Part shown: positions 10,431 through 33,023 of the stretch, one piece after another | How positions within the stretch are numbered: position 1 is the stretch's first letter | How the letters are laid out: each line of letters opens with the position of its first letter | Origin: Streptomyces sp. ML-6 | GTDB taxonomy: Bacteria > Actinomycetota > Actinomycetes > Streptomycetales > Streptomycetaceae | Direction of reading: 5' to 3' | Length of the DNA stretch: 64,000 nt | Assembly: GCF_030116705.1 (NCBI RefSeq) | Contig: NZ_JAOTIK010000004.1 | Span: 1 to 64,000, forward strand | The notes under the pieces: generated by a model | The model's database searches: none | What the model saw: only the letters and a program-made list of their open reading frames with translations | What the model was told of the DNA's origin: nothing | Made by a program: the position numbers and the translations under genes

Positions 10431-10694
10431 TCTGCGCACCCCCGGTGATCGGCAGGAGAGCACGCTACGACGGAACGTCTGGGCTTGCCGGGGCCTGTGG
10501 ATATCCCGGTGATGGGCCTGTGGCGGCCAACGGCAGTAGTGGCATCTGGTGGTTACCCGGGTCAGCGCGAGCGCTCAGTGCGACGTGGGTCTGCTTTTGG
10601 GCAACCTTCTGACCTGCGCATTTGATGGTTTGGGTCAGCGGTCGGGTCAGGGGTGCTGAGAAGAGTTCACGGCATCACCTGAACGGGAGCTGTC

Positions 10695-11534: not shown

Positions 11535-11650
11535 TGACGATTTCTCAGATTTCTCGGCTGTGGCTGTCACGTCTGGGGGGCGGGCGCTCCTTGGTCTGGG
11601 TGTGCGGCGGAACGGCTGCCGTACTCGGGCTTGGAAGGGGTGAGCGGGAC

Positions 11651-11899
11651 ATGGCGGATCCGGTGCTCGCGGCGGAGGACGGCGGGGACATCGAGCTGCT
11701 GGTGCGGGCGCGTCGACGGTTGCGTGATCTGGTGGTGCAGCTGGAGGTGGCGCCGTTCGCTGACCGAACGGCGCGGTCCATGCGCGCCTACCTCGATGAG
11801 GATGCGGCACCGGCCCAGGCCGCGTTCGCCCGCTGGGCCGCGTTGCCGAAAGCGGCTCGGGACACGCTGGCCGCCCGGATGCGGCAGGAGCAGCCGTGA
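11651..11899 (+). CDS. small T4SS-operon protein
   Basis: An 82-residue, strongly helical, soluble protein from ATG 11651 (AGGGG ten bases upstream): ELLVRARRRLRDLVVQLEV and TARSMRAYLDEDAAPAQAAF. The frame is open back to ATG 11534, which overlaps the previous stop. That start would add 39 residues of poorer composition, so 11651 is preferred but not certain. Stop overlaps the TcpC-like gene start. Confidence 0.5.
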   Translation: MADPVLAAEDGGDIELLVRARRRLRDLVVQLEVAPFADRTARSMRAYLDEDAAPAQAAFARWAALPKAARDTLAARMRQEQP

Positions 11900-12875: not shown

Positions 12876-12915
12876 GCAAGGAGCCGGTCGGGGCCGGGAC
12901 GAAGGAGAGCGCGCA

Positions 12916-13239
12916 GTGATGGACGTGACGGTACTGGCTGGGGCGATCGACGACGTCGACCAGCTCACCCAGAGGATCACCGGTTTGCTGGTCGGCTCGG
13001 TGATGTCGTTCATGGTGGTTGCGGCAGTGGTGACTGCCTGGGCCAAGTCGAAATCGATTCTGGCTGCCGGTGTGGCGCTCGCCGGTGGCGTGGCGTTGTG
13101 GTTCGCGGTGATGAATGCTGCGGTGTTCCGCGACAGTGTGGGCGAGGACATCGCTCCGAACAGCGGCTCCGTGAAGAACGCGGGCGCTGTTCATGCGGTG
13201 GTCCGAGTCGTCGAACCGGTGGACGGTGCGCGGCGATGA
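12916..13239 (+). CDS. small T4SS membrane protein, copy 1
   Basis: A 107-residue protein from GTG 12916 (an ATG follows as the next codon; GGAG upstream). Two transmembrane helices (about 22-42 and 48-68), then AAVFRDSVGEDI and a C-terminal GSVKNAGAVHAVVRVVEP. Overlaps the next gene as ATGA. Its size and topology resemble VirB2/VirB3-type small subunits, but the assignment rests on position. Confidence 0.6.
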   Translation: MMDVTVLAGAIDDVDQLTQRITGLLVGSVMSFMVVAAVVTAWAKSKSILAAGVALAGGVALWFAVMNAAVFRDSVGEDIAPNSGSVKNAGAVHAVVRVVEPVDGARR

Positions 13240-13493
13240 CCAGCGTTCTCGCCGTCTTCCTGACGGCAGTTGTGGTGCTCTTCTCGGTGTCGCATGTATG
13301 GGCCAAGGTCCGCTCACTGTTTTCTTCGGTCGCAGTACTCGTCGGCACGGCGCTCTTCTTGTACGTGCTCCTGGCGGCCGTGTTCCACGACAGCGCCGGT
13401 GTCGAGATCGTCTTCGACGGTTCCGTGAAGAGCGCGGGCGCCGGTCACACGGTGGTCCGGGGCATCGAACCTGCGGCCGGTGAGCAGCGGTGA
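13236..13493 (+). CDS. small T4SS membrane protein, copy 2
   Basis: An 85-residue protein with two transmembrane helices. Its second half (AAVFHDSAGVEI, GSVKSAGAGHTVVRGIEP) is clearly homologous to the preceding gene, so the pair arose by tandem duplication. Start ATG 13236 overlaps the previous stop. The two may form a hetero-oligomer in the transfer channel (inference). Confidence 0.6.
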   Translation: MTSVLAVFLTAVVVLFSVSHVWAKVRSLFSSVAVLVGTALFLYVLLAAVFHDSAGVEIVFDGSVKSAGAGHTVVRGIEPAAGEQR

Positions 13494-14176
13494 GCGGCGT
13501 TGCGGCGCCGGAAGTGCTGGTTGGCCGGTGCTACACCCGGGCGCGCCGTCACCCTTTGATGATCGGGAAGTGGCCGGGTGGGCGGGGCCGGATCTGGGGT
13601 GGTCCGTACACGGTGCCGCAGATCGTGGTCCTGGCCGCCTCGCTCGCGGGCCTGGTGCTGACGCGGGGGGTGTGGGCTCATTTCGGGCTGTTCAACTATG
13701 CGATCGCGATCGGTGGGCCCTATGGGTTGTCGCTGCTGGTGCGCCATATCCGGGTCGACGGCCGTAATCCGCTGGCGGTGGCCGCGAGTTCCGCCTCGCT
13801 GGTGGCGCGGCCGCGGGGAGGGCGGCTGGGCGGTCGTCCGCTCAGGTCGCGGGGTGGTCACCAGCCGCTGATCGGGGTGTGCAGCGTGACCTGGGCCGCA
13901 CCGCAGCCCGGGGCAGGTGCCAGGGGCGCGGGCCGCCCCGTGCTCCGCCCGGTCCGGTCTCAGGCTGCGGCCTCCCGTGTGATGGGCGCCGGCCGCACCA
14001 CCACAAGCGCTTCTGTGTCCGAGAGCCCTGTGCCCGTCGGCCGGAAGGACGTCGGCGCAGCCCGTGGAGCGGTTGGCCGTCGGCCGGCGCCGGTCGCGGC
14101 TTCGTTGCTCGCCGCCCGGCGCCGCGGCCGCCAGTTCAGCACGAGTGATGCGCCTGTGGCGCAGCGAGGGGAGTGA
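13490..14176 (+). CDS. T4SS inner-membrane protein, PrgI/TcpE-like position
   Basis: A 228-residue protein from GTG 13490. Two hydrophobic segments near residues 45-60 and 65-82 (VPQIVVLAASLAGLVLT, FNYAIAIGGPYGLSLLV) are followed by a long, basic, low-complexity Arg/Ala/Gly tail. Lies immediately before virB4, where PrgI/VirB3-like proteins sit in Gram-positive systems. The exact family is uncertain. Confidence 0.55.
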   Translation: MSGVAAPEVLVGRCYTRARRHPLMIGKWPGGRGRIWGGPYTVPQIVVLAASLAGLVLTRGVWAHFGLFNYAIAIGGPYGLSLLVRHIRVDGRNPLAVAASSASLVARPRGGRLGGRPLRSRGGHQPLIGVCSVTWAAPQPGAGARGAGRPVLRPVRSQAAASRVMGAGRTTTSASVSESPVPVGRKDVGAARGAVGRRPAPVAASLLAARRRGRQFSTSDAPVAQRGE

Positions 14177-14179
14177 CCT

Positions 14180-16771: not shown

Positions 16772-19366
16772 CCAGGCGGGCTGCCGCATCGGCGGGGACA
16801 CCGAGGGCGCGCGCCCGGGCCCGGGGCGTGGGGGTGCTGCAGGGGGTGAAGCGGTGGGCGCGCCCCGGGCGGTCCATGGCTGCGGGGCTGATGCTGCTGG
16901 TGCTGTCGTTCCTGGTGTCGCTGGTGCTGGCGGGCGTGTCGGCGAGCGCGGCCCCCACACCGACGCCGGCGCCTTCGCCTTCGGTGGGTCCGACGCTGCC
17001 CGGCCCGCAGAACCCGCTCGAGCCGAGCCCGCTCGTCCCCCAGCCGGGTACGTCGGGCCGGCCGGATGACTCCCCGCTGATCCGGGACGGGATCAAGGAG
17101 GCCGAGAAGGAGGAGAAGGCCGCCCGCGCCGAGTTCGACAAGCTGGTGGAGAAGTACAAGAAGGACCGGGCCGCGCAGGGCGGGGTGCTGTCCGCGTTCG
17201 AGGTGACCGACCGGGACGGGAATCCGGTCAGCTCGTACCGCATCTACTCCGACACCGGGGACTGGAACGACTGGGACCTGAGTGTGCAGGGGTTCCTCGT
17301 CGAGATGATGTTCATGGGGAACAAGTGGATCGTCAGCTTCGCCTGCTTCCTCTTGACCTGGAGCCTGGCGTTCTCCCTGGCCGGGCTGATGCTCAAGCCG
17401 GCGCTGCAGGTGTCGACGTCGCTGTACGGGAGCGTTGTCGTGCAGATGGGTCTGCCGGTGCTGTTCCTCACCTTCACGATGGTCGTCGCGTCGTGGCATC
17501 TGCTGTTCGGAAACCGGGTGCGCGGCTGGGGCGAGATGGCGGCTGCCCTGGTCATCTCCGCACTCGCGCTCGGTGCTCTCGCCTCTCCCCGCAGCTCCTG
17601 CTCAGCAAGGACACCGGGGTGGTGGGCGTGGTGCGGGACCTGGCGGTCGAGACCGCCGCCCTGGTCCTGGACAAGGAAGCCATCGACACGGCCCGGCCGA
17701 CCACTGAGAGCGGATGGGAGAAGAAGCCGTCCGGGTCGACCGTGGGTGCGCAGGTCCGGTCCTCGCCGAGCGCGCTGGCCCGCCCCATCACCGACGCCCT
17801 CGTGGACGCGTTCGTGGCCCGGCCGGCCATGCTCCTGTCCTACGGGCGGACCTTCGAGGGCAGGTGCGGGAAGAAGTTCCGCGATTCACGGGTCCAGCAG
17901 GCCGTGTTCGACCAGCTGGTCGACACCAAGATGGAGAAAGGCAAGTCCTTCCTCAAGGACCTGCCGGGCTTCGGGATCGCGCTGCCCGACAGCGTCAAGA
18001 ACTGGATGGTCGACACCACCGTCGACGCCGCCACCTCCCAGATGCTGGAACAGGTCCACGCGTCCGGCCCCATCAAGGCGTTCGAGAAGGCCTGCGTCCA
18101 AAACGCCGGCACACTGAAGAAGGCGTCGATGGACAAGGTCGGCGGCGCGCTCTTCATGCTCCTGGCCGCGTTCCTCACCTGCATGTTCGTCATCGTCCTG
18201 GACGGTGCATTCCTCTTCGCCCAGCTACAGATCGCCATCGAGGCGATGATCGCAAAGGTGGCCCTCGCGGCGGGGATCCTGCCCGGCCCCGGCCGGGCCT
18301 GGCTGTGGGGCCGGGCCGCGGCCATCGCCCGCGGCCTCGCCCTGATGCTCGCCTCCATCGCCTCCATGTCCGTCTTCATCGTCGTCGTCAACGCCGTGCT
18401 GAACACACCGGAAAGCGACCTGCCGGGCGGTCTCACCGTCCGGTTCGTCCTTTTGGACTGCGTCTGCGTCGCCGCGTTCATCTACCGCAAGAAGCTCGCC
18501 CGCTCCACCCGCGGAGCGGTGGCACGCGCCCGTCACCGCCTCGGCAACTCGCCCCTGGGCGGATCCGTCTCCCCCGCCCCCGTCGACATGCCGAGGCGCG
18601 GCGGGCTCGGCAAGGGCCTGCTGCTCGGCGGGCTCATGCTCGGCGCGGCCGCCGCCACCGGGGAACCGGTGCTGTGCTCGGCGGCGCCGGACGCATCGGC
18701 TCCACCCGGCTCGCCGGACGCATCGGCGGCTGGCTCGCTCACGGCGGGGGCCGTGCCGTGGCGGGGCTGACCCGGCTCACCGGCCGCACCATCGAGGCCG
18801 GGGCGAAAGGCACCGTGAAGGCCGGGGTGTTCGGCCTCAAAGCCACTGTCGGACTGCCGGTGTACGGGCCGCGCGCGGCCCGCAGGGTCGGCGCGGCTGC
18901 GACCGCTCTGCCCGCCCAGGCCGCAGGCCGGGTCAGCAGCGCCGTCCAGAACCTCCAGCAGAGCGCGCAGAGTTTCCACCGGAGCTACGTCCAGCCCGCC
19001 CAGCAGTTCGCCGGGGAGTACCGGCACAACGTGCGCTCCCTCGGCCGGATCGTCCGGGGCCGGCCCGGGCTCGGCCCCTACACCCCGCCCCGGGCCGCTG
19101 TTCCCGGTCCCCGGCGGGCACCGGCGCCCCGCCCCGCCCGGCCGGCTCCTGCACCCCAGCCGGCCCCCGCACCGCCCGTCCGGCGGCGCCCTGCGCCGCC
19201 GCGCGTCGCCCAACCGCCCTCCAGCGCGGCCCAGGCCATGCTCCAGCAGCGCCTGCACCGCATGCGCCAGCCGCGGAACACCGGGAGCAGCACCCCGCCT
19301 GCGCCCGTCCCCTCCGCCCCTGCGCGTCGTTCGCAGGCCGCGCCGCGCCTGGGAGGGCGCTCATGA
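16768..19366 (+). CDS. VirB6/TrbL-like polytopic channel protein (two frameshifts in this sequence)
   Basis: About 867 residues after repair. It has a signal-like N-terminal helix, a Pro-rich and then charged coiled-coil-like extracellular segment (KEAEKEEKAARAEFDKLVEK), a block of five or more transmembrane helices, and a long Ala/Pro/Arg-rich cytoplasmic tail. Breaks are at the C4 run 17586-17589 (restores ALASPQLLLSKDTG) and the G4 run 18660-18663 (restores AATGGTGAVLGGAGR). Start ATG 16768 overlaps the virB4 stop. VirB6-family proteins form the inner-membrane DNA channel. Family assigned on topology, size and position. Confidence 0.75.
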
Positions 19367-20473
19367 GCGGCGCACGGAAAGTGGCCTTGGCCGTTTCCCT
19401 GTACTGGTTTCGGCTGTGGGTGTCGTCGGCGTCCTGGTGCTGTTCATTGCCGCTGTCGCAAACGGGGCGGCCGGACACGAGAAGGAGGCCGCCGCCCCGC
19501 CGTCCGTGTCCGGGGCGGCCCCGGGGCGGTGGCCGGCATCAGTCCGGTGATGCTGTCCGCCTACACCCGCGCCGCCGCGAACGTGCGCGCCCTGCGGCCG
19601 AAGTGCACGGGCATGCGGTGGTCCGTCATCGCTGGGATCGGCAAGGTCGAGTCCAACCACGCCTCCGGGCGCACCATCACAGTCGGCGGGGATGTCCGCC
19701 CGCGTATTCTCGGGGTCCGGCTCAACGGATCCGGGGCCGGGGGGAACACGAGCGTCTTCTCCGACACCGACCACGGCCGGCTCGACGGCGACACCGCGTA
19801 CGACCGGGCAGTCGGCCCCATGCAGTTCCTGCCCTCCACCTGGAACGGCCCCAGCGGCCAGGACGGAAACGGTGACGGGGTGAAGGACCCGCACAACGCG
19901 TTCGACGCCGCGCTCGGAACCGCCGTCTACCTGTGCGGAACCGGGACCACCGACCTGTCCCGGACCGACCAGCTGCGCAAGGCGGTCTACCGCTACAACC
20001 GTTCCGAGGCGTACGTGGGCGACGTCACCGGCTACGTCGACGAGTACGACCACCTCCCCGCCGCCCAAGACAGCACGGCGGGGTCGGCGACCGGCCGGGC
20101 CGGCGCCGTCGTCGACGCCGCGCTGGCACAGCGCGGCACTCCCTACGTGTGGGGCGGCGGCAGTACCACGGGCCCCACCAAGGGCGGCTACGACTGCTCG
20201 GGCCTGATGCTCTACGCCTTCTACCAGGGCGCCCGGGTCACGCTTCCCCGCACCTCCCAGCAGATGCGGCACTCCGGTACCCGGGTCCCCCGCTCGCAGA
20301 TCCGGCCCGGCGACCTCATCGTCATCAACAACGACGGAAACTGGGGACACGTCGGCCTCTACACCGGCAACAACACCATGGTCCACGCGCCCCGGCCCGG
20401 AAAGACCGTCGAGACCACCTCAACGTCCGGGTACTGGGAGCGGTACGACTGGGACGTACGCCGAGTGCTATGA
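19363..20473 (+). CDS. VirB1-like lytic transglycosylase / NlpC-P60 hydrolase (two frameshifts in this sequence)
   Basis: About 370 residues once repaired. An N-terminal membrane anchor (GVVGVLVLFIAAVANG) leads to a lytic transglycosylase domain with catalytic Glu in GIGKVESNHASG and PMQFLPSTW. An NlpC/P60 endopeptidase domain follows with Cys in GYDCSGL and His in WGHVGLY. Breaks are at 19394-19399 (TTT/CCC) and the G4 run 19523-19526. It opens the peptidoglycan for the transfer apparatus. Last gene of the operon; the Tn7-like element begins directly after it, so downstream transfer genes may have been displaced. Confidence 0.85.
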
Positions 20474-20691
20474 AGTCGTGTAGATTCTCATTGGAGATGT
20501 CGTTGTCTCAGTGTTCTGTCATCAACTTGTCGTCCAGCAGCCCGAGTTACAGGACGGGCTCGACGTAAACGACGAACGTCATCTCGGTTCGAGAACCAGC
20601 CTTTCGCTTGGTTTTCCATGCCTTCCGTGCAGATTCCCGCTGGCCACGCGCCATCGTCCCGGTGTCGGTTCCGCCTACACAAGGGGTCGCT
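20474..20691. promoter_or_regulatory. putative left end of the Tn7-like element
   Basis: About 220 bp between the T4SS operon and tnsA. It has an AT-richer start and recurring short motifs (GAGATGTCGTTGTC, CTTGTCGTCC, and the inverted CGACGAACGTCATCTC) that look like degenerate TnsB-binding sites. No matching right end could be identified by eye, so the outer boundary is not fixed. Confidence 0.35.
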
Positions 20692-21443
20692 GTGGCACGC
20701 GCTTCGAGCCAGAAGAGCACGACAGAAGGTGAGACGGTCTCGGTCCGCTACCGGCAAGCGGATGGCCAGTTCGTTGAAGCGGTCCTGGACCGCCTCATCG
20801 TTCCCGAGGTGACCGGCGGCCTGCCGGTACGGGATTTCCGCTGGTACAAGGGCCGTCGTCATTACTCGGGCTGGTACCACGCCGCCACAGTGGGGCGGCT
20901 GGTGGCCTACGAGAGCCGGTTGGAGCTGGCTCGGATTCTGCTGGCCGATTTCGACCGCGGTGTCGTGGAGATCGCCTCCCAGCCCTTCCAGCTGGCCGGT
21001 CGTGACGGTGACCGGCTTCGGCGGCACATCCCTGACCTGCTGCTTGTCCACTCTGACGGTCTGGTGACCGTCGTCGATGTCAAAGCCCCTCACGCATGAA
21101 GGACCCGAAAGTGACTGCACAGTTCGCCTGGACGAAGCGCATCTGCGCTCGTCGCGGCTGGTCCTACGAGACCTGGTCGGGCGGCGATCGGGCCGTGGTG
21201 GAGAACGTACGGTTCCTCGCGGGCTACCGGCGCCCTCAGCTGCTGGAGATGGACCGGGCGCCGGCAGTGCTCGCGGCGGCCCGGGGCCAGTCGACCATCG
21301 GCGGCATCGAGGCGGCCCTGGCCGCTCGGTTTCCGGCACATGCGGTCCGTCCGCTGGTGCTGCACCTGATCTGGTCGGGAGCCCTGGTCGCGGACCTGCG
21401 GCGCCCCCTGGCGGCGGCCACCTCGATCGAGGTGGCGTCATGA
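20692..21443 (+). CDS. tnsA: TnsA-like transposon endonuclease (frameshift in this sequence)
   Basis: About 250 residues after repair. The N-terminal half is a restriction-endonuclease fold with catalytic residues Glu74 (YESRLELARILL), Asp115 (RHIPDLLLVH) and Lys131 (VVDVKAP), matching TnsA's E-D-K spacing. The C-terminal half (FAWTKRICARRGWSYETWSG, VRFLAGYRR) is the TnsA C-terminal domain. The break is at the C4 run 21086-21089; one added C gives VDVKAPSRMKDPKV. GTG 20692 with AAGGGG upstream is preferred over longer starts. It cuts the 5' strands at transposon ends; overlaps tnsB. Confidence 0.85.
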
Positions 21444-23494
21444 CCGGCCGGGCAGTGACCGTCTTCCCGGGGGTGCGGCTGCTCTACTGCGGCGACGTGG
21501 CCGAGGTTGTCGAGCTGGAAGGACTCACGGCCACGCTGCGCAACGAGCGGACGGGTGAGTTCAGCACACTGCCGCTCGGGCGGTTGGCGGCCGACGCCCG
21601 GTCCCTGGGGGCGGGGAGTGAGCCGGAGACGCAGGATGGGTCTGTCCTGCTGGCGAACCTGTCCCCGGCCCGGCGGGCGAGGCTGCATGAGAGGGCTCGG
21701 CATGTCCGGGAGGTGCTGACCGGCTTCCGAGCCGGGCACCCGGACGGCGCCGCGGCCGACGAGCCGCGCCCGCAGTTCCAGCCGGATCTGCCGCTCGGGG
21801 ACCGCACCGCGGCCAAGGCGACGGAGCTGAAGGTCTCACCTCGGACGATCGACCGGTGGGTGGCTGCCTACCGTGAAGCAGGCGAGGCCGGGCTGGTGGA
21901 CGCCCGAGCCGTCAAGGGCCGGGGTTCGCGGGTGGATCCGCGCTGGGAGGAGGCCCTGCGCTGGGTGCTGGCCGAGTTGGTGAACGCCTCTACCCCCACC
22001 CGGTCCGCGGTGCTGCGCCGCACCGAAGATCGACTGGAAGAGGAGTTCGGGGCCGGGACGGTGCCTCTTCCCTCGCGCGCTACGGCCTACCGGCGCCTGG
22101 CGGAGCTGACGAAGGGCACGAGCGCGGTGTCCGGCAGTGCCAAGTCCCGCCGCTCGATCGCGGACCGGCCCCGCGGCGCCTACGGTCGGCTGCGGGCGAC
22201 GCGGCCGGGTGAGTACGTGGTGCTCGACACGCAGGACCTGGACATCTACGCGATGGAGCCGGTCACCTGCCGCTGGGTTCCCGTCCAGCTCACTGTCGCC
22301 CAGGACCTGTTCTCCCGCTGCATCGTGGGCCTGCGGGTGACAGCGTGCTCCACCAAGGCGGTCGACGTCGCCGGGGTGCTGTTCGAAGCCGTCTGCCCGC
22401 CCATGGACACTGCGGACCGCCCCGAGCTCGCTCCCTATCACGGGCTGTGGGACCACGTGGTGTTCACCGAGGAGGACGCGGTTCCCGGGCGGGGGCTGTG
22501 TCCGCCGGAGACGCTGGTCGTCGACCACGGCAAGGCATTCATGTCGGCCCACGTGATCAGTGTCTGCACCCGGCTGGGCATGTCGATCCAGCCTGCCCAG
22601 CCGAAGAAGCCCACCGACAAGCCAACCGTCGAGCGCTTCTTCCGAACGCTGCGGGAGGGGCTGATCCAGCATCTGCCCGCCTACAAGGGCCCGGACATCC
22701 ACAGCCGCGGGGAGAGGATCGAGGACCAGGCGTTCTTCTACCTCCACGAGGTCGAGGAGATCGTCCGCGAGTGGATCAGCGAGGTGTTCCACCGCCGCGC
22801 CCATGAGGGACTCACCGTCCCGCACTGGCCCCACCTGCAGTTGTCCCCGCTGGAGATGCTCCGCGTCGGAGTGCACCGGGCCGGACGGCTGCGGATGCCC
22901 GCCACCGCCGAGCTGGCCTTCGAGTTCCTGCAGGTCAGGCCGCGCACCATTCAGCACTACGGCGTCGATGTCGACGGGCTGCGTTACAACGGGCCCGCGC
23001 TGGACGGGCTGCGCGGGACGACGAGCCCCTACGGCGGGCGTCTGGCCGGGCGGTGGCCGATCCGCGTCAACCCCGACGACGTGCGGTTCGTCTACTTCCA
23101 GGACCCCGACGACGGCTCCTGGCATGCCCTGGAATGGGAACACGCTCCCGCGCTGAACATGGCCTTCAGCACCGAGGCCGCCGCCTACGCCCGGCGGCTG
23201 GCCGCCCGCACCGGACGGCACATCGATGCCTCGAAGGCTCTGGGAGATCTGCTGGCCCGCTGGGACCAGGGGCTGGTCACCGACCGCCGCGAGCGTCGCA
23301 TGGCGGTGCGGCTGTCGGCCGAGCGGGCCGCGCTGTCCCTGCCCACCCTGCCGGACCAGGCCACGGCCACGAGCCGGCCGGAGCTGACGGTGGTGCCAGA
23401 TCCTCCCCTCGGCGACAGCGACGACGAGGACGAGCTCTTCGATGCCCCGCAGGGCGAGGACTACTACGCCGATGCCTTCGAGGTGATCGAATGA
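21440..23494 (+). CDS. tnsB: TnsB-like DDE transposase
   Basis: A 684-residue Mu/TnsB-family transposase from ATG 21440. An N-terminal HTH region (KVSPRTIDRWVAAYREAGEAG) precedes the catalytic core. The core triad is Asp263 (VVLDTQDLD), Asp362 (LVVDHGKAF) and Glu398 (KPTVERFF), with exactly 35 residues between the second Asp and Glu. The C-terminal part carries the Mu-type beta-barrel region and an acidic tail (DSDDEDELFD) that probably contacts TnsC. Intact. It cuts 3' ends and joins strands. Overlaps tnsC as ATGA. Confidence 0.92.
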   Translation: MTGRAVTVFPGVRLLYCGDVAEVVELEGLTATLRNERTGEFSTLPLGRLAADARSLGAGSEPETQDGSVLLANLSPARRARLHERARHVREVLTGFRAGHPDGAAADEPRPQFQPDLPLGDRTAAKATELKVSPRTIDRWVAAYREAGEAGLVDARAVKGRGSRVDPRWEEALRWVLAELVNASTPTRSAVLRRTEDRLEEEFGAGTVPLPSRATAYRRLAELTKGTSAVSGSAKSRRSIADRPRGAYGRLRATRPGEYVVLDTQDLDIYAMEPVTCRWVPVQLTVAQDLFSRCIVGLRVTACSTKAVDVAGVLFEAVCPPMDTADRPELAPYHGLWDHVVFTEEDAVPGRGLCPPETLVVDHGKAFMSAHVISVCTRLGMSIQPAQPKKPTDKPTVERFFRTLREGLIQHLPAYKGPDIHSRGERIEDQAFFYLHEVEEIVREWISEVFHRRAHEGLTVPHWPHLQLSPLEMLRVGVHRAGRLRMPATAELAFEFLQVRPRTIQHYGVDVDGLRYNGPALDGLRGTTSPYGGRLAGRWPIRVNPDDVRFVYFQDPDDGSWHALEWEHAPALNMAFSTEAAAYARRLAARTGRHIDASKALGDLLARWDQGLVTDRRERRMAVRLSAERAALSLPTLPDQATATSRPELTVVPDPPLGDSDDEDELFDAPQGEDYYADAFEVIE

Positions 23495-24048
23495 GGCAGC
23501 CGCATCTGTTCAGCCTCTCCCGCAAGGAGGGCTGGCGCCGCTTCGTCGACGAGCCGGCCCGGCAGCGCCCCGCGACCCTCACCCGGCGCCAGCTGGCGGC
23601 CCTGGGCGAGGAGGCGGCCGAGGACTACAACGACGCCCGGCACGACTGGCATGCCAACTTCGGCATCGTGCAGACACCCCAGCTGGCCTCCGTCCACGAT
23701 GCGTTGGACGAGATCGTCGCGTCCAACCGGCAAGACGGCGACCGCATCCGTTCCGCGGCCGTCATCGACGCCCTGCCGGGTCTGGGCAAGACCACCATCG
23801 CCAACCTCTTCGGCCGCACCTTCGACCGCCAGCAGATGCGCCGCCTGGGCCAGGTCACCGACGCCGGGCACGAGCGCATCCCCGTCTTCCGTGTCGGGCT
23901 GACCTCCAACACCACACTGCGGACCCTGAACCGGATGATCTGCGAGTTCTACGGCCACCCGGCCGCCGACCGCGCCAATGCCGCCACCTTGGCCAGTCAC
24001 GCGCTCGACTGCGTTCTATCCTGCGAGTCCCAGCTGGGGATCATCGAC
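23491..24048 (+). pseudogene. tnsC: tnsC, 5' part (split by Tn554-like insertion)
   Basis: The first 186 codons of an AAA+ TnsC/TniB-like ATPase: Walker A LPGLGKTT at about residues 95-102 and the sensor-region phrase IPVFRVGLTSNTTLRTL. The frame ends just inside the Walker B strand (QLGIID) and then meets the inverted end of the inserted element, reading FTDRP and a stop at 24066. The missing continuation, DDIHLLD onward, lies at 31318. In the family this ATPase links TniQ target recognition to TnsAB; here it is inactivated. Confidence 0.88.
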
Positions 24049-24060
24049 TTTACCGACCGC
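24049..24060 (+). repeat. left terminal inverted repeat of Tn554-like element
   Basis: TTTACCGACCGC directly after the last tnsC codon; perfect inverse complement of 31303-31314. The first 11 bases recur at 24117-24127 in the same orientation, giving a double left end as in recombinase-bound att sites. Confidence 0.88.
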
Positions 24061-24171
24061 CCGTAGTCCTGCCCGTGATGTCCGTCTGGGACTGTGACCA
24101 GCACGTCCTGGGCTTGTTTACCGACCGGGTCCGGGACGTCTGTCATGTTCTGGAGTCGGTACGGAGGACAA

Positions 24172-25350
24172 GTGGTACGGCACGTTGTGGTGGGGGACCT
24201 GAGGGTCCAGCGGATCGAGCGGAAGGACGGGCAGCGGTCATGGACGATCGTCTGGCCCGAGGGAACACTGCACGCGGAGGCGGACCGGTTCCTGCGTGAG
24301 CACGAGGGCTCGGGCACGCAGAGGACGTACGCGTACTACCTGGTGGACCACCTGCGGTGGCTGGAGCGCGAGTGCCTGGCCTTCGACACGGTCCAACTGC
24401 GTGACCTGGAACGGTATATGGGGATCGTCGGCGCCGAGGTCCGCATACCGCTCGGGGAACCGTGGCGGGTGGGCAAGCGCCCCTACGGCCGCTCGGCGCT
24501 GTCGACCGCGGCGGCCTGCTTGAAGGGCTTCTACCTGCAGCAGGCTTCTCGCGGCATCAACGGCGAACTCGGCAAGAAGCTCGACAAGTCCCGTCTGCCG
24601 ACGCGGGCCGACAAGCGCCGCTCGTTCCTCGGGCACGTGAAGAACAAGCTGCCGACCAACCCACTGGCACCGAAGGGGCCGCACCGCCGGCACCCGAAGA
24701 TGCTGCCGGAAAAGGCCAGGGAGAGGCTGCTGGGGACAGTGAACGCCGCCCGGGACCGGCTGGTTATCGACTGGCTCGCCGACGGCGGACTTCGGATCGG
24801 CGAACTCTGCGGGCTGCACCTGGTCGACCTGCACCTGCGCGAGAACGCGGCCTGCGGCGAGTGCCGCACCCCGCACCTGCACGTCTGCCACCGGCCCGGC
24901 AACCCGAACCGGGCCGAGGCCAAGACCAAACATCCCTGGCGGGTCGAGCGCGGGACGGTGACCGGCGGGCTGATCAAGCGGGTCAGCCCGGCGATGGTGC
25001 ACTCCTACTTCGAGTACATGACGACCGAGTACCCGCGGGGCGCCGGGCACGGCATGCTCCTGGTCCAGCTGCACGGCGCCGATAGCGGCCAGCCGTGGGC
25101 TCCGGTCGGCGCCCGCCGGATGCTCGGCCGGGCCGGGAAACGCGCCGGGTTGGGGCTGGTGAAACCCCATGCCTTCCGGCACACCTTCACCTCGGCGGTT
25201 CTCGATGCCGCGGACGGCAACACCCTGATCGCCCGGGACGCCGGCGGCTGGGCGTCGGCCGCGATGGTCGATGAGGTCTACGGGCACGTCGATGTCCACG
25301 ACCCGGTCTTCGATGCCGCGCTTCGCACGGTCTGGGGTGAGACGAAGTGA
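24172..25350 (+). CDS. tnpA: tyrosine recombinase, Tn554 TnpA-like
   Basis: A 392-residue integrase from GTG 24172, chosen because GGAGG sits at 24163-24167; longer frames run back to 24094. SAM-like N-terminal domain, then a catalytic domain with Arg in DGGLRIGELCGL, HAFRH as the H-x-x-R box, GGWASAAMVDEVYGH with the probable Tyr nucleophile, and a Cys-rich insert (CGECRTPHLHVC). First of three coupled genes (ATGA-type overlap with tnpB). Acts with TnpB and TnpC in excision and integration of the element. Confidence 0.85.
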   Translation: MVRHVVVGDLRVQRIERKDGQRSWTIVWPEGTLHAEADRFLREHEGSGTQRTYAYYLVDHLRWLERECLAFDTVQLRDLERYMGIVGAEVRIPLGEPWRVGKRPYGRSALSTAAACLKGFYLQQASRGINGELGKKLDKSRLPTRADKRRSFLGHVKNKLPTNPLAPKGPHRRHPKMLPEKARERLLGTVNAARDRLVIDWLADGGLRIGELCGLHLVDLHLRENAACGECRTPHLHVCHRPGNPNRAEAKTKHPWRVERGTVTGGLIKRVSPAMVHSYFEYMTTEYPRGAGHGMLLVQLHGADSGQPWAPVGARRMLGRAGKRAGLGLVKPHAFRHTFTSAVLDAADGNTLIARDAGGWASAAMVDEVYGHVDVHDPVFDAALRTVWGETK

Positions 25351-27967
25351 CCGCGAACTCGCTGCTGCCCCTCTACACCGAACGTTCCGACCGCGAGGGC
25401 CGTGACAGGCTGGAGATCCTCACCGCGCTGATCAGTGCCCCCTTTTTCGACCCGATCTTCCGTGGAGTACTCGTCCGGGTTCCCCAAGACCACTCCGTCT
25501 ACCAGTGGGGATGCGTCGTCGGCGCCTGCGAACGCGTCCGCTCCGGAGGGACGGACCTGTGCTCCAACCATCTCCGGCAGTGGGGAAAGGCGCGGGAATC
25601 GGGCACGACCCGGGCGGAGTTCCTCACTGCGGCACAGCCGCTGTCCCGGGCCGAGTTCGAGCGCGAGGGCCCGTGCTCGATCTGCCCCGATCGGCCGGCG
25701 GAGCCGCGAACCGACCTGCGGTTGTGCCGCGCCCACTACAGCTCCTGGAAGTACTACGTCGCCCCGCGCGATTCCGGGGCGGACTTTGAGCAGTGGGCTG
25801 CTGAACAGGAGCCCCGCGGGGGTTACGGCAACTGCAAGGTCACGGTCTGCCCCGGGCTGGCGGAGTCGCCGCTGGGTTTGTGCAGCTGGCACTGGCACCG
25901 TTACAAGCGCGACCGCCGCCCCGGCGGGGCGGCCCTTCCGGCCAGCTGGTGGCAGCGATACGAGAGCCAGGGACGCTCCGTCCCCGTCTCCTGCACGGAC
26001 GAGAACGCCTTCCGCACCTGGTGCGCGAGGGTCGATCCGGCCCCGAGGCCGGGACTGGTCAACCTGCGCGGTCTGCGGCCGCTGCTGCGAGCCGAGATCC
26101 AGTACACCCTGTTCGCCCACACCCAGCAGGACCGGCACAGCATCTGGCGCCTGGACTGGATCCAGAAGCTCGTCAACCTCGCGCGAGAGCGCGACGCCGG
26201 CTCGCTGACCGACCTGGACTTGGACGACTTCCCGCGGTTTCACACCTCGATTGTGAAGAAGATGCTCCACTACCTGCGGCTGGTCTACTTCACCCCGAGC
26301 AGACGCGGGACGCCGGGTTCCTCGAGACCGACCACTTCGGCATCCGCTTCCCTCACCGGGCCAGCCACATCGACCTGACCCGCATCACCCAGCGCTGGCT
26401 GCGTGACCTGCTCTGGGACTACACCGCCGAGCTCATCCGCTCGCCCCACCGCCCACGCACCGCAGTGCCCATCGACGGCATCCGCCGGGCCTGCACCGAG
26501 CTGAGCGCGTTCATAGAGGTCGACGCCCCCGGCGGCGGCCACGACCCGAGCGCCTTGCGGGTGGAGCACATGCACCGGTTCATCGCCGATCAGCGCCATC
26601 GTGAACGCCACGGGCTGCCCTCGCTGGTGATGAAGGGGCTCTACGGAAAGCCGTCGACGGTCACCTCCGTCACCCGCACCGACGTGTTCAACGGCGTCCG
26701 CAAGCTGCTGCGGAACGCGATGGAGAACGGCGCCGCCGAACGGCTCGGCCTGGACCGCGAGTTCATCATCGCCATGCCATTCGCCGGCGGCGAGCCGCTG
26801 CGAGCCCGGCGTCCGTTTCCCGACGAGGTCGCCCGAGCCCTGGCCGACGAGGCCAACCTCGCCCAGCTCACAGAGCAGTACGACCCCGATGACCAGGGGA
26901 TGCGGGACGTCTGGGAGACCATCGTGCTGACCGGCCGCCGCGTGAACGAGGTCCTCAAGCTGCGCTGGAACTGCATCGGCCGCTACGGCGGCCTGCCGAT
27001 GTTCTGGCACGACCAGACCAAGGTCGGCAACTACGACACCGCAATCCGTATCCCCGACCGGCTCTACGACCTCCTCGCCGAACGGCAGCGCAAGACACTG
27101 GACCGGTTCGTCGCCCGGCACGGACGCCGCCCGACCGGCACCGAACGCGCTCAGCTTGCCCTGTTCACCAGCAAGGTCCGCAACCCCGACGGCGCTACCG
27201 CTCTGTCCTACCAGTGGTTCCACCGAAGGTTCCGGGAGTGGGCCACCGAGCTCGACCTCGGCCAGCTCGTCCCCCATCAGGCTCGCCACACTCTGGCCAC
27301 CAGCCTGCTTCGGGCCGGGGCGAGCCTCACCCACATCCGCCGCTATCTCGGCCAGGTCTCGGACCGGATGGCCGAGCACTACGTCCACCTGACCAGCGAA
27401 GACCTGGAGAACGTCCTCCAGCACGTCTGGGTCACCGGCCCCGGCACCGCCCAACCCGGCGAACTCCTCGCCGGAGAGACCACCCCACTCACCCGAGAGC
27501 AGGCCCAGGCCCTCGCCATCGACCTCTCACGCCGCAGCACCCCCTCCGAGGGCGGGTTCTGCACCTTCCAGCCCGTCGTCGACGGCGGCGCCTGCCCCTG
27601 GAACCTCGACTGCCACAACTGCGACAAGTTCGTCCTCTCCGGCGCCGACCTCCTCTACTGGCGGCGCAAACGCGAACAGTGGCGGCTGCTGGCCGAAGGC
27701 GCCCCGGACGACGCGATCGCCGACTATCTCCACCGCTACTTCGAGCCCACAGCCCGCGCCATCGACGGCCTGGAGAAGGCCCTGGTCGGCCTCGGCCTCC
27801 TCGGCGACGCCCTCGCCCTTGACCTGCGCAAACCCCAGGACTACTTCCACCGCGTGTGGTCCACGGCCTTCCGCGCCGCCGACCTCGCCGACGCGGGCGA
27901 CGACGAGCAGAGCGAGTACAGCGATACGTGCACAACCGACAACGACCCCGAGCAGGACATCGCATGA
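25347..27967 (+). CDS. tnpB: large tyrosine recombinase, Tn554 TnpB-like (frameshift in this sequence)
   Basis: About 873 residues after repair, longer than Tn554 TnpB (about 630). The N-terminal 200 residues hold three Cys/His knuckles of similar pattern (C-x4-C...C-x2-H: CVVGAC/CSNH, CSIC/CRAH, CKVTVC/CSWH), probably zinc-binding. The C-terminal catalytic domain has Arg in LTGRRVNEVLKL, HQARH as H-x-x-R, and DRMAEHYVHL with the Tyr. A final CPWNLDCHNC cluster may bind another metal. The break is at the C4 run 26293-26296 (restores FTPEQTRDAGF). Overlaps tnpA and tnpC. Confidence 0.85.
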
Positions 27968-28551
27968 AGACCTCTGCCGTTCCAGAACCCCGCACGGCCG
28001 CCGCCCTGGCCGCCCGCCGCCACAAGACCGAGACCGCCCTGAAGCGGGTCCGTGAAGCCATCATCCGGCTCCGGCGTGAGAAGGCCCAGGTCAGCGTGAC
28101 CGCCGTCGCCCGTCGAGCGGACGTCTCCCGCACCTTCCTCTACGACAATCCCGAGGCCAGAGCCGTCATCGCCTCCGCGATGGCCGAGGCTGGAGAGCGC
28201 CGGACCCAGTTGCTCGCCGACCAGGGCGAGGAACGTGAGGCGACCTGGCGTGAACGCGCTCTGAATGCCGAAGACGCCCTCAAGACCGCTCACAGCGAGA
28301 TCCTCGCCCAGCGGAATCGCATCGGTGAACTCATCGGCCAGGTGCGGGACTTGGAGGCCGAATGGGCCGAGGAGGCCGTCCAGCGGATCACTACCGAGAA
28401 CACCACCCTCAAACAGCGAGTCCGTCAGCTCACGGCCGACAACCGCAGCCTTGACGAGCGGCTCAAGGCGGCCCGCTCCAACCTCCGCTTCCAGGACCGC
28501 CGCGTCGCTGACCTCGAAGCCCGGATCGTTGACCCAGCGTCAGGCATCTGA
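27964..28551 (+). CDS. tnpC: TnpC-like coiled-coil accessory protein (DUF6262 type)
   Basis: A 195-residue protein from ATG 27964, overlapping tnpB. A short HTH-like segment (VTAVARRADVSRTFLYDNPEAR) is followed by a long coiled coil of about 100 residues (ENTTLKQRVRQLTADNRSL). This is the third member of the recombinase trio. In Tn554, TnpC affects orientation and efficiency of transposition. Ends into a hairpin shared with ptuB. Confidence 0.8.
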   Translation: MKTSAVPEPRTAAALAARRHKTETALKRVREAIIRLRREKAQVSVTAVARRADVSRTFLYDNPEARAVIASAMAEAGERRTQLLADQGEEREATWRERALNAEDALKTAHSEILAQRNRIGELIGQVRDLEAEWAEEAVQRITTENTTLKQRVRQLTADNRSLDERLKAARSNLRFQDRRVADLEARIVDPASGI

Positions 28552-28574
28552 CCTCGCCTTCGCTCTTCCGGCCT

Positions 28575-28608
28575 CATGGCCCGTTCTCCGTCCGGTGGAC
28601 GGGCCATG
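28575..28608. terminator. bidirectional terminator between tnpC and ptuB
   Basis: Perfect 10-bp stem CATGGCCCGT / ACGGGCCATG in the 85-bp gap between convergent genes. Confidence 0.65.
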
Positions 28609-28636
28609 TCGGCGTACACGTGAAAGTGGCCTGCAG

Positions 28637-29478
28637 TCACTCCAGGAATCCTCCGTTACAGAAGGCACCATCCGCTGCGAGGGTCCGGTAGGTCACGCCT
28701 TCCCACCCGTTGGGTTGGACAGCGAGTCGAGTGGCGGCTTCGGCCGCGAGGTATTCGTGCACGAGCTCCTTGCCGCCAGCCTTGAACTGTCCTTCGAGGG
28801 TGTGTTGGATGTTCCTCAGGGTCCGGTTGGCCTGCACTGCGTAGGTCTTCGCCAACCCGAACATAGTGAAGTGGTGCGTGGCCCGGGCTATGAGGCCCTG
28901 CCCCCATGTTGGTGGCGGGGTCACGAAGAACTCCAGCCGCACGGGGGCGTCGTGAATGACTTTGGCCTGCAGCCAGGTCACGTCGTCGATACGGTCGAGA
29001 TACGGGTGTAAAGGTGTGGTCTCAACCGTGGTCGGCTTTTGATCGCCTTTGATGTGGTTGCAGTCGCTGCAGGCTGGCACCAGATTGAGTGGGGCCACGC
29101 AAAGAGCGGGGAAGGACATCTTAGGCAGGACGTGGTCGAGCTGACGGACGGTTCCGTGCCCGCACAGGGGGCACCTCTCGTCGACGGGGGCGCCCATGAG
29201 CTTGTCATAGATTAGGCGGCCCTTTTGGTTCCCCGCATCCCGTTCTCGTACGCCCAGGTCACGGCGGCCTTGTCGTCGATGCCTGGAACCTTGAACTCGG
29301 CGGCTTCCAGGGCGTGCAACGTCTGGCTGTGGGCTGCTTCCCGGAAGCGCTCTCCTGCAGCTTCGACGGCTTCGGCCGCGGCTGTCAACTTCTCTTGCCG
29401 ACTGGTGTCCCGGGTGCTGCTCACACATGCGTCGTAGCTCTCGCGGGCTGTCTCGGCGGGGGGCTCCAGCGGCCACAT
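28637..29478 (-). CDS. ptuB: PtuB-like HNH nuclease, Septu defence (frameshift in this sequence)
   Basis: About 280 residues after repair. The helical N-terminus (ARESYDACVSSTRDTSRQEK) leads to an HNH domain with zinc Cys pairs CPLC and CSDC, the HNH His in QLDHVLPKMSFP and Asn in PLNLVPACSDCN. The break is at the plus-strand C4 run 29231-29234; one added base restores MRGNQKGRLIYDK. ATG 29478 overlaps the ptuA stop as TGATG. In Septu, PtuB is the effector nuclease activated with PtuA during phage infection. Confidence 0.78.
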
Positions 29479-31036
29479 CAGCGGCTCTCTCCTGCGGCCT
29501 TGTCTGCGAGGAGGATCCGCACCAGCCCTTGGCCTCGCCGCCCAGCTGGCCGCCGAAGTGGGCAAGGACTTCTTCGTAGGTGCCATGGGCCCTGACCGCC
29601 CTTTTGACTTCCGCGTAGAAGCCGGACTCCTTCACCTCCAAGCCGAAGATCTCGTGTGTGAGGACACCGACGTTCTCACCGAAAGTCTCGATGGTGGGCC
29701 GCTCGGCCTGACGGTTGCCCCAACGGCTCAGTTTCCAGATGCAGGAGCGGGGGACCTCTTGGAGGACGACAGGGGAGTGGGTGGCGATGACCGCGACTGC
29801 GTTGCGGTCATCCATCAGGTACGACAACGTCCTGATGAAGGAAGATAGGAGCGGTGGGTGCAGGTGGGCCTCGGGTTCGTCTAGGAGCACCAGGGACTGC
29901 TCGGCCACGAGCGTGGCCAGCTTCGTGATGGTCAGCAGCACGATCGAGTGGCCTGAACTGAGTTGGCCAAAGATCCTTCGGGCTGCCTCTTGATCGCTCT
30001 CCGTGAATGTCTGTGGCGACTGCTCACGGAGGCGTCGAGCGAAGTCATGGACGGGGGAGGCGGCGAAATGCGGGTCACTGCTCAGAATGCGCAGGGCATG
30101 GACCCACCGTCCGAGCCGTCCGGCCGCCCAAACCTCTTTGAGGCAACTGGCGAACTCCGAGCCCAGTTGTTCATGTGATTTGGGCTCGCCGAGGTTGTTC
30201 CCAGCGCTAGCGAGCCCCACGTACGCGTACGTGGTCGCTGCGTGGTCGGGGTCGCCAACCACACTGACGAAGGGGTCGAAGGCACTGAAGGTGACGGAGA
30301 CGACGTTGACGAAGGGTTCACCGTCCTCCGCGGTGGGGGTGGGGAGGTGTTCGATTCGGCCGGCATTGACGTCGGCGCGGTCAGGGTGGACGGCCGCTTG
30401 GGCCATGTTGCGCAGCAGGGTGGTTTTGCCGACTCCGTTGCGTCCGATCAGGACGTGAATGTTGCTGGACGGGGTGGTGCGGGGGGTGACCACGAAGCTG
30501 AGTGGCGGGGGCGGCGGGACGTCGCTGTCTGGCGCGGGAACGAGGTAGTTGAAGCGGTACTCGGTGAGCCGGGAACCACCGCTGGCGATGCGCTTGAACT
30601 GGGCCATGACCGTACGCTTCTCGACGCTGCGCAGCAGCGAGAGGGCCGTCACGTCGTATTGGAGGGCGAAGTCCAGACGCTTTGATGAGAGAGCGATATC
30701 ACCCAGTCCGATGAGGATCTCCAAGCGTACCTGGGTGCCGAGTTTCCTGATGCTGTCGTAGTACAGGTCGTCTTGGCCCAGGGAGAACAACTCGGGCCTG
30801 CGGAGGGAGTCAAGGTGCTCGAACTGCCCTACGGGGAGGGGACTGGGCCCCGGTTCCTGGGCGCCGAGGGCGATCTTGACGCGGCCCAGGCGCTGGATCT
30901 GTCTGTTTTCGTCCCGAAACCAGAGGTCGTAGCTGGTCTGGTAGCCGTGGTCGTCCCCGGCAACTGGGACGAGGATGGCTTCTTGGGGGCCTTCGTCCGA
31001 CGGGGACTGTCGATCGGCTTGGACCACGAATCGCAC
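29478..31036 (-). CDS. ptuA: PtuA-like AAA/SMC-type ATPase, Septu defence (frameshift in this sequence)
   Basis: About 519 residues from GTG 31036 with AGGAG five bases upstream. Walker A GRNGVGKTT lies near residue 202, the ABC-type signature region in QLSSGHSIVLLTI, Walker B LVLLDEPEAHLHPP, and the His switch ATHSPVVLQEVP, as in AAA_15/21 ATPases. The break is near the end at plus-strand CCC 29526-29528; one added base gives KGLVRILLADKAAGESR and a stop overlapping ptuB. The pair matches Septu type I gene order and domain content. Other ATPase-HNH systems cannot be fully excluded. Confidence 0.78.
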
Positions 31037-31302
31037 AGGGTCTCCTGGGAGCCACTCAGGGGCGCCGAGCCTTGACGAAGCGGATGCGGCGCCGGGACTC
31101 GTGAACGGTATCTGGTCCTGGGGCCTGGTAGCGGCGTGTATTCAACTGCCGTGAGTTGAGCCCGTTCATCAATACTCGGCTGAACTTCGGGGAGTACGCG
31201 GACAGCCGTCTCACGAGACCACACAGACGAACGACAGCAACTCTCCATCACGGACATGTAGTCTATGAATCGTCGCAGTTCAGAGCCGGTTTCCGAGCTC
31301 CT

Positions 31303-31314
31303 GCGGTCGGTAAA
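31303..31314 (-). repeat. right terminal inverted repeat of Tn554-like element
   Basis: GCGGTCGGTAAA, inverse complement of the left end. Three bases (CTG) separate it from the GAC where tnsC coding resumes. Confidence 0.88.
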
Positions 31315-31317
31315 CTG

Positions 31318-31821
31318 GACGACATCCACCTCCTGGACACCCGCACCCGCGTGGGCGCCGAGACGTCCGACCAGATGAAGTACCTGTCCGAACGTGTCGG
31401 CGCCACCTTCGTCTACGCCGGAGTCGCCGTCGAGGACTCGCCCCTGCTGAGCGGAATCCGCGGGGCGCAGCTGGCGGGGCGGTTCAAGCTCCTGTCCAAC
31501 CCTCCCCTGGCATACGGGAGTCGGGAGCAGCAGGCAGCGTGGCGCGGGCTGCTGGACGGCATGGAGAACGCGCTGCGTCTTGAGCGGCACCGTCCCGGAT
31601 CGCTGGGGCGCATGGCCCGCTATCTGCACGAGCGCACCGGCGGGCGGCTCGGGAGTCTGTCCGCGCTGATCCGCGAAGGAGCGATCACCGCGATTCTGGA
31701 CGGCACCGAGAAGATCACCAAGAAACAACTCGATGCCGTCCGTCTCGACCATCTCGCTGAGCAGGATGCACGGCCCCCAGCCGAGCAGGCCCCGTCCGGC
31801 CACTCCCGGACGGCCGCCTGA
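31318..31821 (+). pseudogene. tnsC: tnsC, 3' part (split by Tn554-like insertion)
   Basis: Resumes at Walker B (DDIHLLD) and continues through FVYAGV (sensor I region), RFKLLSNPPLAYGS and GSLGRMARYLHERTGG to the C-terminal KITKKQLDAVRLDHL, ending at 31821. Joined to 23491-24048 it gives an ATPase of about 353 residues, the usual TnsC/TniB size. It has no start or ribosome-binding site of its own. tniQ follows after 98 bp. Confidence 0.88.
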
Positions 31822-31919: not shown

Positions 31920-33023
31920 ATGCCCCTGTCCCCACCTGTCCAAAGCCGCCTGGCCGCGGGCGCGATACGCACCGCGCCCCTCGAAGGCGAGACGACCGCT
32001 TCATGGATCACCCGGTGCGCAGCCCGCTACCACCTGCCCGCAAGTCCTTACCTCCGAGCCGTCCTTCAGCAAGAGGGCCGCGCCACTGTGAGCGGCCGGA
32101 GCGCGCTGGGCGCCGAGCTCTACCTCAATGCCGCGGCCCGCGAACGCGTGGCCGCCTACAGCCGCATCGAGGAGCAGGTCCTGGCACGCGTACTGCCCGC
32201 CTGGCCGCTCGACCTGGATGTTCTACGGCACCACACCGGGCCGGCCGCGCACTGGCAGTCCCCCACCACGCACACGGCCGCGTCGGTCATGGCCGGGTGC
32301 CTCAAATGCACCGCACCACGCAGCCGCGGACAGCAGGTATGGCAGTACCGGGGCCGGCACCAGCGCGTCTGCCACACGCATCGCATCTGGCTCGTCGGCG
32401 GCGAGGCGGGCTACACCGGACCGACCCAGATACCGCTCGATCACCTGGGCCAACACGAAGCCGCCCGCATCCTGGCCGCACACCGACGCCACCAGGACCT
32501 CACCGACCCAGGCGGCATAGCCGCCGAGGCGTGGCTGTGGGCCCGCGGCACCATCCAACACCTCTACACCGACCAGAAATTGATGTCGGGCACTGTGCCG
32601 GTTTCGTGGAACAAGCGCCTTGACGCCCTGGCCGCACAGGCCGGTCGTATGGGCAAGGTGTGGCCGTGGTGGATCATCGCCCGCGACCTGGTCACCTATC
32701 CCGAGACCTTCGCTCTGGCCGAAGCCCTCACCGCGATGACCGCGGACGCGGACGCGTACCAACACGCCGCAGCCGAAGAGCACTTGGCTGGCCTTCTGTC
32801 CGACGCACTCCGGACGAACACCGGCCCAGACCCCGCCGACGAGGCGGGAACCCTCGCTCGATGGCTCGCCCGACACGCACGCAGCGAACTACAGCGCTGG
32901 CTGAACAGCCGCCACGGCGACGCGAGCGCGGCACCCCTGCACGTGGCGCCCCTGACCTGGGCCCTCAAACGACACGCCGACCGTCAGGGCTGCGAGGCGG
33001 ACGGGGTGTCCGGCCCGGTGTAA
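31920..33023 (+). CDS. tniQ: TniQ/TnsD-like target-selection protein
   Basis: A 367-residue protein from ATG 31920. The N-terminus has the TniQ phrase PLEGETTASWITRCAARYHLP. A zinc motif follows with C127-x2-C130 (CLKC) and C151-x2-H154 (CHTH), then a helical C-terminal region. TniQ proteins bind target DNA and recruit TnsC. A single, mid-length TniQ with no CRISPR genes nearby implies sequence-directed rather than RNA-guided targeting. The last 40 bp overlap the convergent acetyltransferase gene. Confidence 0.85.
   Translation: MPLSPPVQSRLAAGAIRTAPLEGETTASWITRCAARYHLPASPYLRAVLQQEGRATVSGRSALGAELYLNAAARERVAAYSRIEEQVLARVLPAWPLDLDVLRHHTGPAAHWQSPTTHTAASVMAGCLKCTAPRSRGQQVWQYRGRHQRVCHTHRIWLVGGEAGYTGPTQIPLDHLGQHEAARILAAHRRHQDLTDPGGIAAEAWLWARGTIQHLYTDQKLMSGTVPVSWNKRLDALAAQAGRMGKVWPWWIIARDLVTYPETFALAEALTAMTADADAYQHAAAEEHLAGLLSDALRTNTGPDPADEAGTLARWLARHARSELQRWLNSRHGDASAAPLHVAPLTWALKRHADRQGCEADGVSGPV

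Follow-up and report, generated by a model that had tools for sequence, protein, structure and literature searches.

How an ATPase gene comes to lie in two pieces more than 7 kb apart, and whether the pieces were ever one gene, are questions raised by the first 64 kb of contig C4 (NZ_JAOTIK010000004.1, positions 1 to 64,000; hereafter the window) in the five-contig, 9.13-Mb genome of Streptomyces sp. ML-6. Here, a tnsC-like frame stops at LGIID (24048) and a DDIHLLD frame restarts at 31318, with a Tsy/Tn554-type element of 7,266 bp (24049–31314, + strand) in between. The original prediction for this locus had described a 7.27-kb element with exact 12-bp inverted ends, splitting tnsC at LGIID/DDIHLLD, all of which we confirm by position; its identification of a Tn554-type trio at the Walker B codons also holds, with Tsy-like being the more precise term. 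Its rejoined frame of one tnsC does not survive, as sequence comparison assigns the two halves to different genes, termed tnsC-α (left) and tnsC-β (right) below. Most probably, the element entered tnsC-α and, as we infer, tnsC-β at the same codon, with a crossover between the two copies having given rise to the chimera.

The evidence for two genes comes from both DNA and protein comparisons. Intact genes from two other genomes (L135 and L136) match the left flank of the window at 86.5% and 85.8% DNA identity, respectively, over 3,049 bp, and are without any DNA match to its right flank; they do match the right flank of the element copy on contig C3 (81.4% over 2,989 bp and 79.1% over 2,947 bp), where the right tnsC half is 40% identical to that of the window. 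The left half in the window shares 91–92% identity with intact α tnsC genes, the right halves of which are 84–96% identical to that on C3 and 37–40% identical to that in the window. With the joined tnsC as query, for which 120 of 1,030 relatives were listed, 114 of those 120 had a left half 71–92% identical to the window's and a right half 65–96% identical to that on C3 versus 33–42% identical to that in the window; the remaining six are mosaics. For the intact β protein P0121, identity is 91% with the right half of the window and 29% with the left, and among the 120 relatives listed for a search with the right half the best left-half identity was 33%. None of these 240 listed relatives (120 per search) was at least 60% identical to both window halves. 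Intact alleles lacking the insert thus exist for tnsC-α (L135/L136) as well as for tnsC-β (P0121), but a gene uniting the halves was found for the C3 pair and not, among the relatives listed, for the window pair. By these comparisons, C3 carries the native α gene still holding the element, being alone in having both α halves as flanks, whereas the window, C1, and C2 carry α-left joined to β-right across the element. The rejoined chimeric frame reads through because both breaks lie at the same codon and in the same phase.

The same element is present on four contigs (C1–C4), of which C1 and C2 match the window at 99.9% as far as 34,079 and 34,164, respectively, and the match to C3 breaks off at 31,329, i.e., the right end of the element. 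Over 23991–31330, the four copies are distinguished by single-base homopolymer indels and by two bases of the C3 right core, at 31315 and 31317, which constitute the sole substitutions between C3 and the window in this interval; further substitutions, a handful in number, are scattered over the first 20 kb of the copies. C1–C4 appear to represent ends of linear replicons, and exchange of telomeres between chromosome and plasmids is known in Streptomyces (PMC7205883). The shared first 31–34 kb of C1–C4 gives the impression that ends of the chromosome and of linear plasmids have been homogenised.

The element is bounded by a left terminal repeat, TTTACCGACCGC (24049–24060, + strand; consensus of 63 loci), and a right terminal repeat, reading GCGGTCGGTAAA on the + strand (31303–31314, − strand; consensus of 49 loci). 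Within the scanned stretch (24001–31400), both are found a single time, and an inner direct copy of the left repeat (TTTACCGACCG) lies at 24117. These ends are more than chance matches, since the TTTACCGACC end recurs in most of 78 TnpA-related loci: in the scanned stretch directly upstream of tnpA, 64 have it with at most one mismatch (50 of them exactly), 11 have a best version with two or three mismatches, and in three no such end was found. The right end (31156–31314 in the window) is in frame with the 3′ half of the target, encoding HVVYESSQFRAGxRAPAVGK, and this frame extends for a median of 48 codons across 49 loci (versus 0 and 17 for the two alternative frames). We make no claim of a function for it, as fixed stops in the other frames may provide the explanation. 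Right tnsC halves fused to this right-end peptide also occur in the metagenomic proteins P0157 and P0187, which probably represent further insertions at the same codon.

While insertion at the Walker B codons stands as regards position, the unit to be considered is a 6-bp core flanking the element at either end. The left core, ATCGAC (24043–24048, + strand), is native to tnsC-α, the intact site of which reads CTGGGCATC-ATCGAC-GACATCCAC, with the codons CTGGGCATC-ATCGAC-GAC found in L135/L136 and in L098/L099. The right core, CTGGAC (31315–31320, + strand), is foreign to tnsC-β, for which the nearest intact relative with DNA (L154) reads CTGGTCCTC-GTCGAC-GACATCCACCTC. The C3 copy has ATCGAC as its left core and GTCGAC as its right core. 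In keeping with this unit, LGIID and DDIHLLD simply abutted would contain one Asp more than the intact genes, which read LGIIDDIH. To judge from these alignments, the footprint thus consists of a native left core and a foreign right core, a pattern reported for SE and Tn554-related elements (PMC10214605). Among 39 relatives in which both ends (at most one mismatch each) and complete cores are available, the left core matches the right core at five or more of six bases in 25, compared with a mean of 7.6 and a maximum of 15 in 2,000 shufflings; at offsets of −6, −3, +3, and +6 agreement falls to 0 of 39–40, and at +9 to 3 of 39. The other 14 loci have two or more mismatches between their cores, something that a carry-over rule permits without demanding. 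The deviant core, by class consensus, is on the right in the selected cases L015, L019, L067, L074, and L086, and ATCGAC is present in all eight loci (L175–L182) that share the L015-like motif.

The reach of such elements was surveyed by scanning genome contigs with TnpA, which yielded the 78 loci from the best 80 of 91 confirmed candidate stretches. Targets were assigned by junction peptides, with Pfam run on at least one member of most classes and some matches falling below the curated cut-off (L025; rve). This best-80 set comprised PD-(D/E)XK-like genes (10), transposase rve domains (9), tnsC/TniB (8), HAD-like genes (6), comM (6), ATP-grasp (4), other AAA_22 ATPases (3), creatininase (2), kinase-like genes (2), DnaE/PHP (2), and single cases of HD, 3HCDH, an IS5 transposase, and an unnamed gene, with 22 loci lacking an assignment. 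The labels HAD-like, PD-(D/E)XK-like, and PHP derive from motifs only, Pfam having found nothing in the scanned flanks of the HAD-like and PD-(D/E)XK-like loci; the comM assignments are by junction peptides, with Pfam on one locus (L067), and L045 was grouped with tnsC on its motif alone. Two of the loci, L015 and L016, are copies within one genome. The expectation that related recombinases would be found in other tnsC genes was borne out: in the window and in nine of ten relatives scanned (the exception being L045), the AAA_22 match of the flank stops at profile position 91, i.e., at Walker B, so that TniB/AAA_22 ATPases are entered at the same point. The trio occurs at unrelated sites too, which is one of the two refuting outcomes named in the original prediction; the other, the lack of an intact tnsC joining the halves, applies among the relatives listed to the window pair but not to that of C3.

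Viewed from the target side, ten tnsC matches outside the ML-6 genome start at residue 177 or later; seven of these (L127–L133) were opened, with the element end being present in L127, L128, and L129 and absent from the other four, and two matches starting before residue 177 (L137 and L138) are without it. None of seven plasmid loci opened, from 108 matching records, had a junction recognised as tnsC. In a TnpA tree (73 rows), target labels are clustered, requiring 17 changes versus 40.8 when shuffled (none of 200 shufflings as low), and the row nearest to the window's TnpA is L011 (97%), an element in an HD-domain gene. A class-weighted profile of the left flank in 40 loci favours T as the middle base of the codons preceding the core, and GA in the acidic codon. 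Codons for hydrophobic residues with Asp or Glu after them have this pattern in common, which would explain how unrelated catalytic motifs come to be targeted. A related element in Rhodococcus opacus (L185, at ~7838 and 12550) is situated at ...TVSD|DTQM, next to an annotated ADP-ribosylglycohydrolase gene.

We propose a model in which TnpB, a TnsF-like protein with putative zinc fingers, would find DNA encoding a hydrophobic β-strand that ends in an acidic catalytic residue, its target here being the Walker B of tnsC. TnpA and TnpB would then exchange strands over the 6-bp core, as suggested by the sequence and by published work on Tsy and SE elements, such that the left core would derive from the target and the right core would be brought along from the previous site. 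Under the SE/Tn554-type rule, the predicted circle junction would be GGTCGGTAAA-6 bp-TTTACCGACC, in which the left core supplies the intervening bases. The element entered tnsC-α, both halves of which flank it on C3, and would also have entered tnsC-β at the same codon. Homologous recombination between the near-identical copies, during an exchange of replicon ends, would finally have set the telomere-side tnsB and tnsC-α-left against tnsC-β-right and tniQ, as encountered in the window, C1, and C2.

Several observations weigh against this model. A close tnsC-β-left half was not found in the ML-6 genome with P0121 as query, which is why the occupancy of tnsC-β is something we infer. The assembly may have mis-joined repeats of more than 30 kb, and the homopolymer differences point to limited polishing. 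The right core of the α copy on C3 is identical to the native core of β, which would fit, weakly, with a β copy as donor of the α copy; the match is a weak one because GTCGAC is the commonest core in tnsC loci (27 of 58 rows, some places having been fetched twice). Moreover, 17 of the 40 left cores in the flank profile lack codons for Val, Ile, or Leu followed by Asp or Glu in that frame, and the TnpA tree is a quick one in which 24 of 68 inner branches are open.

Among the alternatives, it is unlikely that the chimera is an assembly artefact in which the shared telomere/element repeat was joined to the wrong right flank. Near-identical stretches of 31–34 kb on four contigs, with homopolymer indels that differ among the copies, are the setting for such an error; a swap, however, should leave behind a contig with β-left beside the element. 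What P0121 matched instead were the window-type halves, C3, an intact tnsC on C1, and ~60 residues around a Walker A (G000:C1:131154–131333; 47% identical to P0121) that probably belong to another TniB type. The intact tnsC of C1, at 5.5 Mb, is a more distant one (37%). The chimera is also carried by three contigs, two of which (C1 and C2) leave the window at different points. Comparably improbable is an exchange of arms by the element's own recombinases, between one of its ends and a tnsC site, whether empty or occupied, with no part for homologous recombination. The first substitution between C3 and the window in the interval compared is situated just beyond the right end, at 31315, as would suit such an exchange, but with no substitutions inside the element, the crossover could lie anywhere in its 7.27 kb. 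We give still less credence to a natural α-left/β-right mosaic gene that predated the insertion and was entered afterwards: intact mosaics of an α-like left half with another right half do exist (P0018, P0021, P0025, P0028, P0027, and P0032), but no listed relative combines the two halves of the window, the native α gene on C3 holds the same element with a near-identical 31-kb telomere side, and the right core is foreign to β. Hardly credible at all is the version first put forward, of a single tnsC interrupted by a lineage specialised on transposon ATPases, which holds for C3 as regards one gene and could point to tnsC/TniB or other AAA_22 targets in 11 of 78 relatives, but which faces the two-gene origin of the window halves, other assigned targets for 45 of 78 relatives, a nearest relative in an HD-domain gene, and a tnsC label that on the TnpA tree does little better than shuffled (seven changes for nine rows versus 8.5, with 41 of 500 shufflings as low).

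Among the genes of the element, the "recombinase trio" of the original prediction applies to two members only: TnpA and TnpB are tyrosine recombinases, while TnpC is a DUF6262 protein. Short TnpA (24163–25350, + strand) matches Phage_integrase of Pfam at 50 bits, its open reading frame (ORF) being open from 24094 and its start uncertain; long TnpB (25347–27967, + strand) also matches Phage_integrase; and the accessory protein TnpC (27964–28551, + strand) matches PF19776. The tnpA and tnpB genes are adjacent and followed by the DUF6262 gene, all in the same direction. The tnpB frame is shifted in a homopolymer in the window copy and open (875 residues) in those of C2 and C3. Relatives reveal three N-terminal Cys/Cys/Cys/His quartets in TnpB (C56-C61-C72-H75, C110-C113-C126-H129, and C162-C167-C178-H181, numbered as in TnpB of L011), which together with the catalytic residues R530, K558, H643, R646, and Y678 are invariant in 43 of 43 aligned relatives. 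TnpB thus has, on this alignment, the layout of TnsF, with zinc-finger-like quartets within the first 181 residues followed by the residues of a tyrosine recombinase. A search of NCBIfam gave no Tn554-named family for TnpA, TnpB, or TnpC; matches were confined to Xer-type models far below cut-off for the two recombinases and a weak SMC match for TnpC. PF19776 was matched in one of 14 control genomes, below cut-off, and DUF6262 is annotated after the recombinase pair in five of five annotated plasmid records opened (two further records being unannotated there). We take DUF6262 to be the TnpC of Tn554. The cargo (28637–31036, − strand) is a Septu-type pair of PtuA ATPase and PtuB HNH protein, identified by PADLOC (PDC-M01A, 552.6 bits; PtuA, 475.6 bits; PDC-M01B). 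Its frame breaks sit in homopolymers that differ among sister copies; a 280-residue frame covers PtuB in C3, and PtuA is not in one frame even there.

Tn554 of Staphylococcus inserts in radC, unlike the element in tnsC described here. Likenesses to it in layout are the tnpA-tnpB-tnpC arrangement, target specificity, and a 6-bp footprint (PMC10214605). The SE elements (intA-tfp-intB-srap) of the same source share a 6-bp fingerprint/footprint rule that fits the left and right cores; they differ in having four core genes and are reported from Gammaproteobacteria only. In actinobacteria, Van Houdt et al. (2012; PMC3414803) described Tn554-related transposons composed of a long and a short tyrosine recombinase plus a TnpC-like gene, i.e., the same three-gene make-up, on plasmids and chromosomes of Streptomyces, Rhodococcus, and Mycobacterium, with ends, cores, and targets not being defined in the parts of that report considered. 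GInt elements were also weighed as relatives (PMC5385486).

Another close parallel is with Tsy, as described by Faure et al. (2023; PMC10293859), which consists of a tyrosine recombinase (YRec), a helix-turn-helix (HTH) protein, and TnsF, and for which comM is entered at Walker B. By layout, ZooTsy and the present element share (i) a short and a zinc-finger tyrosine recombinase with a small accessory protein, (ii) insertion at Walker B codons, and (iii) a long functional end near YRec (135 bp in Tsy) paired with a short other end (20 bp). They differ in gene order, since HTH lies upstream of TnsF in Tsy whereas here TnpC comes after TnpB and YRec lies upstream, and in target, comM there versus tnsC here, yet comM is also the target in six of the 78 relatives. 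Further differences are the clear 12-bp inverted ends, of which that study found none for Tsy, the actinobacterial setting, and the lack of a GIY-YIG protein among the genes identified, although no dedicated search for one was made. It is for the differing gene order and target that we call the element Tsy-like and not Tsy.

Targeting of the comM Walker B by Tsy is already published, and the Tn7-like transposon Tn6022 apparently took over the selector of Tsy (PMC10293859). For tnsC as a target, and for an α/β chimera, we found no report in the openly licensed literature as searched by title and start of abstract. Relative to Tn6022, the relation is reversed: here, Tn7-like tnsC genes receive a Tsy-like element at their Walker B, at the same point in several lineages. 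The many targets of the related loci are linked by one kind of DNA, namely, codons for a β-strand ending in Asp or Glu. The co-occurrence in one genome of an occupied tnsC-α, an α/β chimera, and shared replicon ends suggests how transposon modules and telomere arms could become mixed through nested elements, and the element may also act as a parasite of another transposon or as a means of disabling it.

A wider, tentative possibility is that such elements serve as portable crossover points that reshuffle tnsC fronts (with tnsB) and backs (with the target selector tniQ) and exchange telomere arms; once the element is lost, a full-length chimeric tnsC would remain. The six mosaics listed above, all full-length tnsC proteins from metagenome sources, have left halves 68–71% and right halves 32–37% identical to those of P0001. 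The join in P0027 reads SRVGKVDELH, in which VGKVD equals the right end of the element plus the core as read on C3; "VGKVDE" is the reading given by GTCGGTAAA-GTCGAC (element right end plus core). This protein could, from its sequence, be a product of element-mediated shuffling. P0032 is one residue short at the join, and no second full-length protein with the P0027 join was found among 295 proteins (a further search having 120 of 403 listed). The six, known from their proteins alone, may reflect element-mediated shuffling, unrelated recombination, or assembly errors. A breakpoint scan of 224 tnsC proteins, a set collected in part with a chimeric query, was not used as proof of many events, given this bias and peaks elsewhere as well as near Walker B.

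The host genes around the element follow Tn7-like order (TnsB, TnsC, TniQ). A tnsB-like DDE transposase of the tnsC-α system (21077–23494, + strand) is 84% identical to that of L135 and is followed by the tnsC-α left half up to Walker B (23491–24048, + strand), recognised by AAA_22 of Pfam and by similarity to intact genes. Across the element, the tnsC-β right half from the core onwards (31315–31821, + strand) has no Pfam match and was placed via similarity to intact TniB-family proteins; a TniQ-like protein (31920–33023, + strand; PF06527) adjoins it. As regards a tnsA, Pfam gave no match in six upstream ORFs (10647–21099), nor at 20488–21441 or 19933–20568. Many of the β-kind TniB/TnsC genes listed (with no control count made) lie within ~50 kb of linear replicon ends in Streptomyces, as exemplified by G117, G151, G154, G108, G066, G047, and G082.

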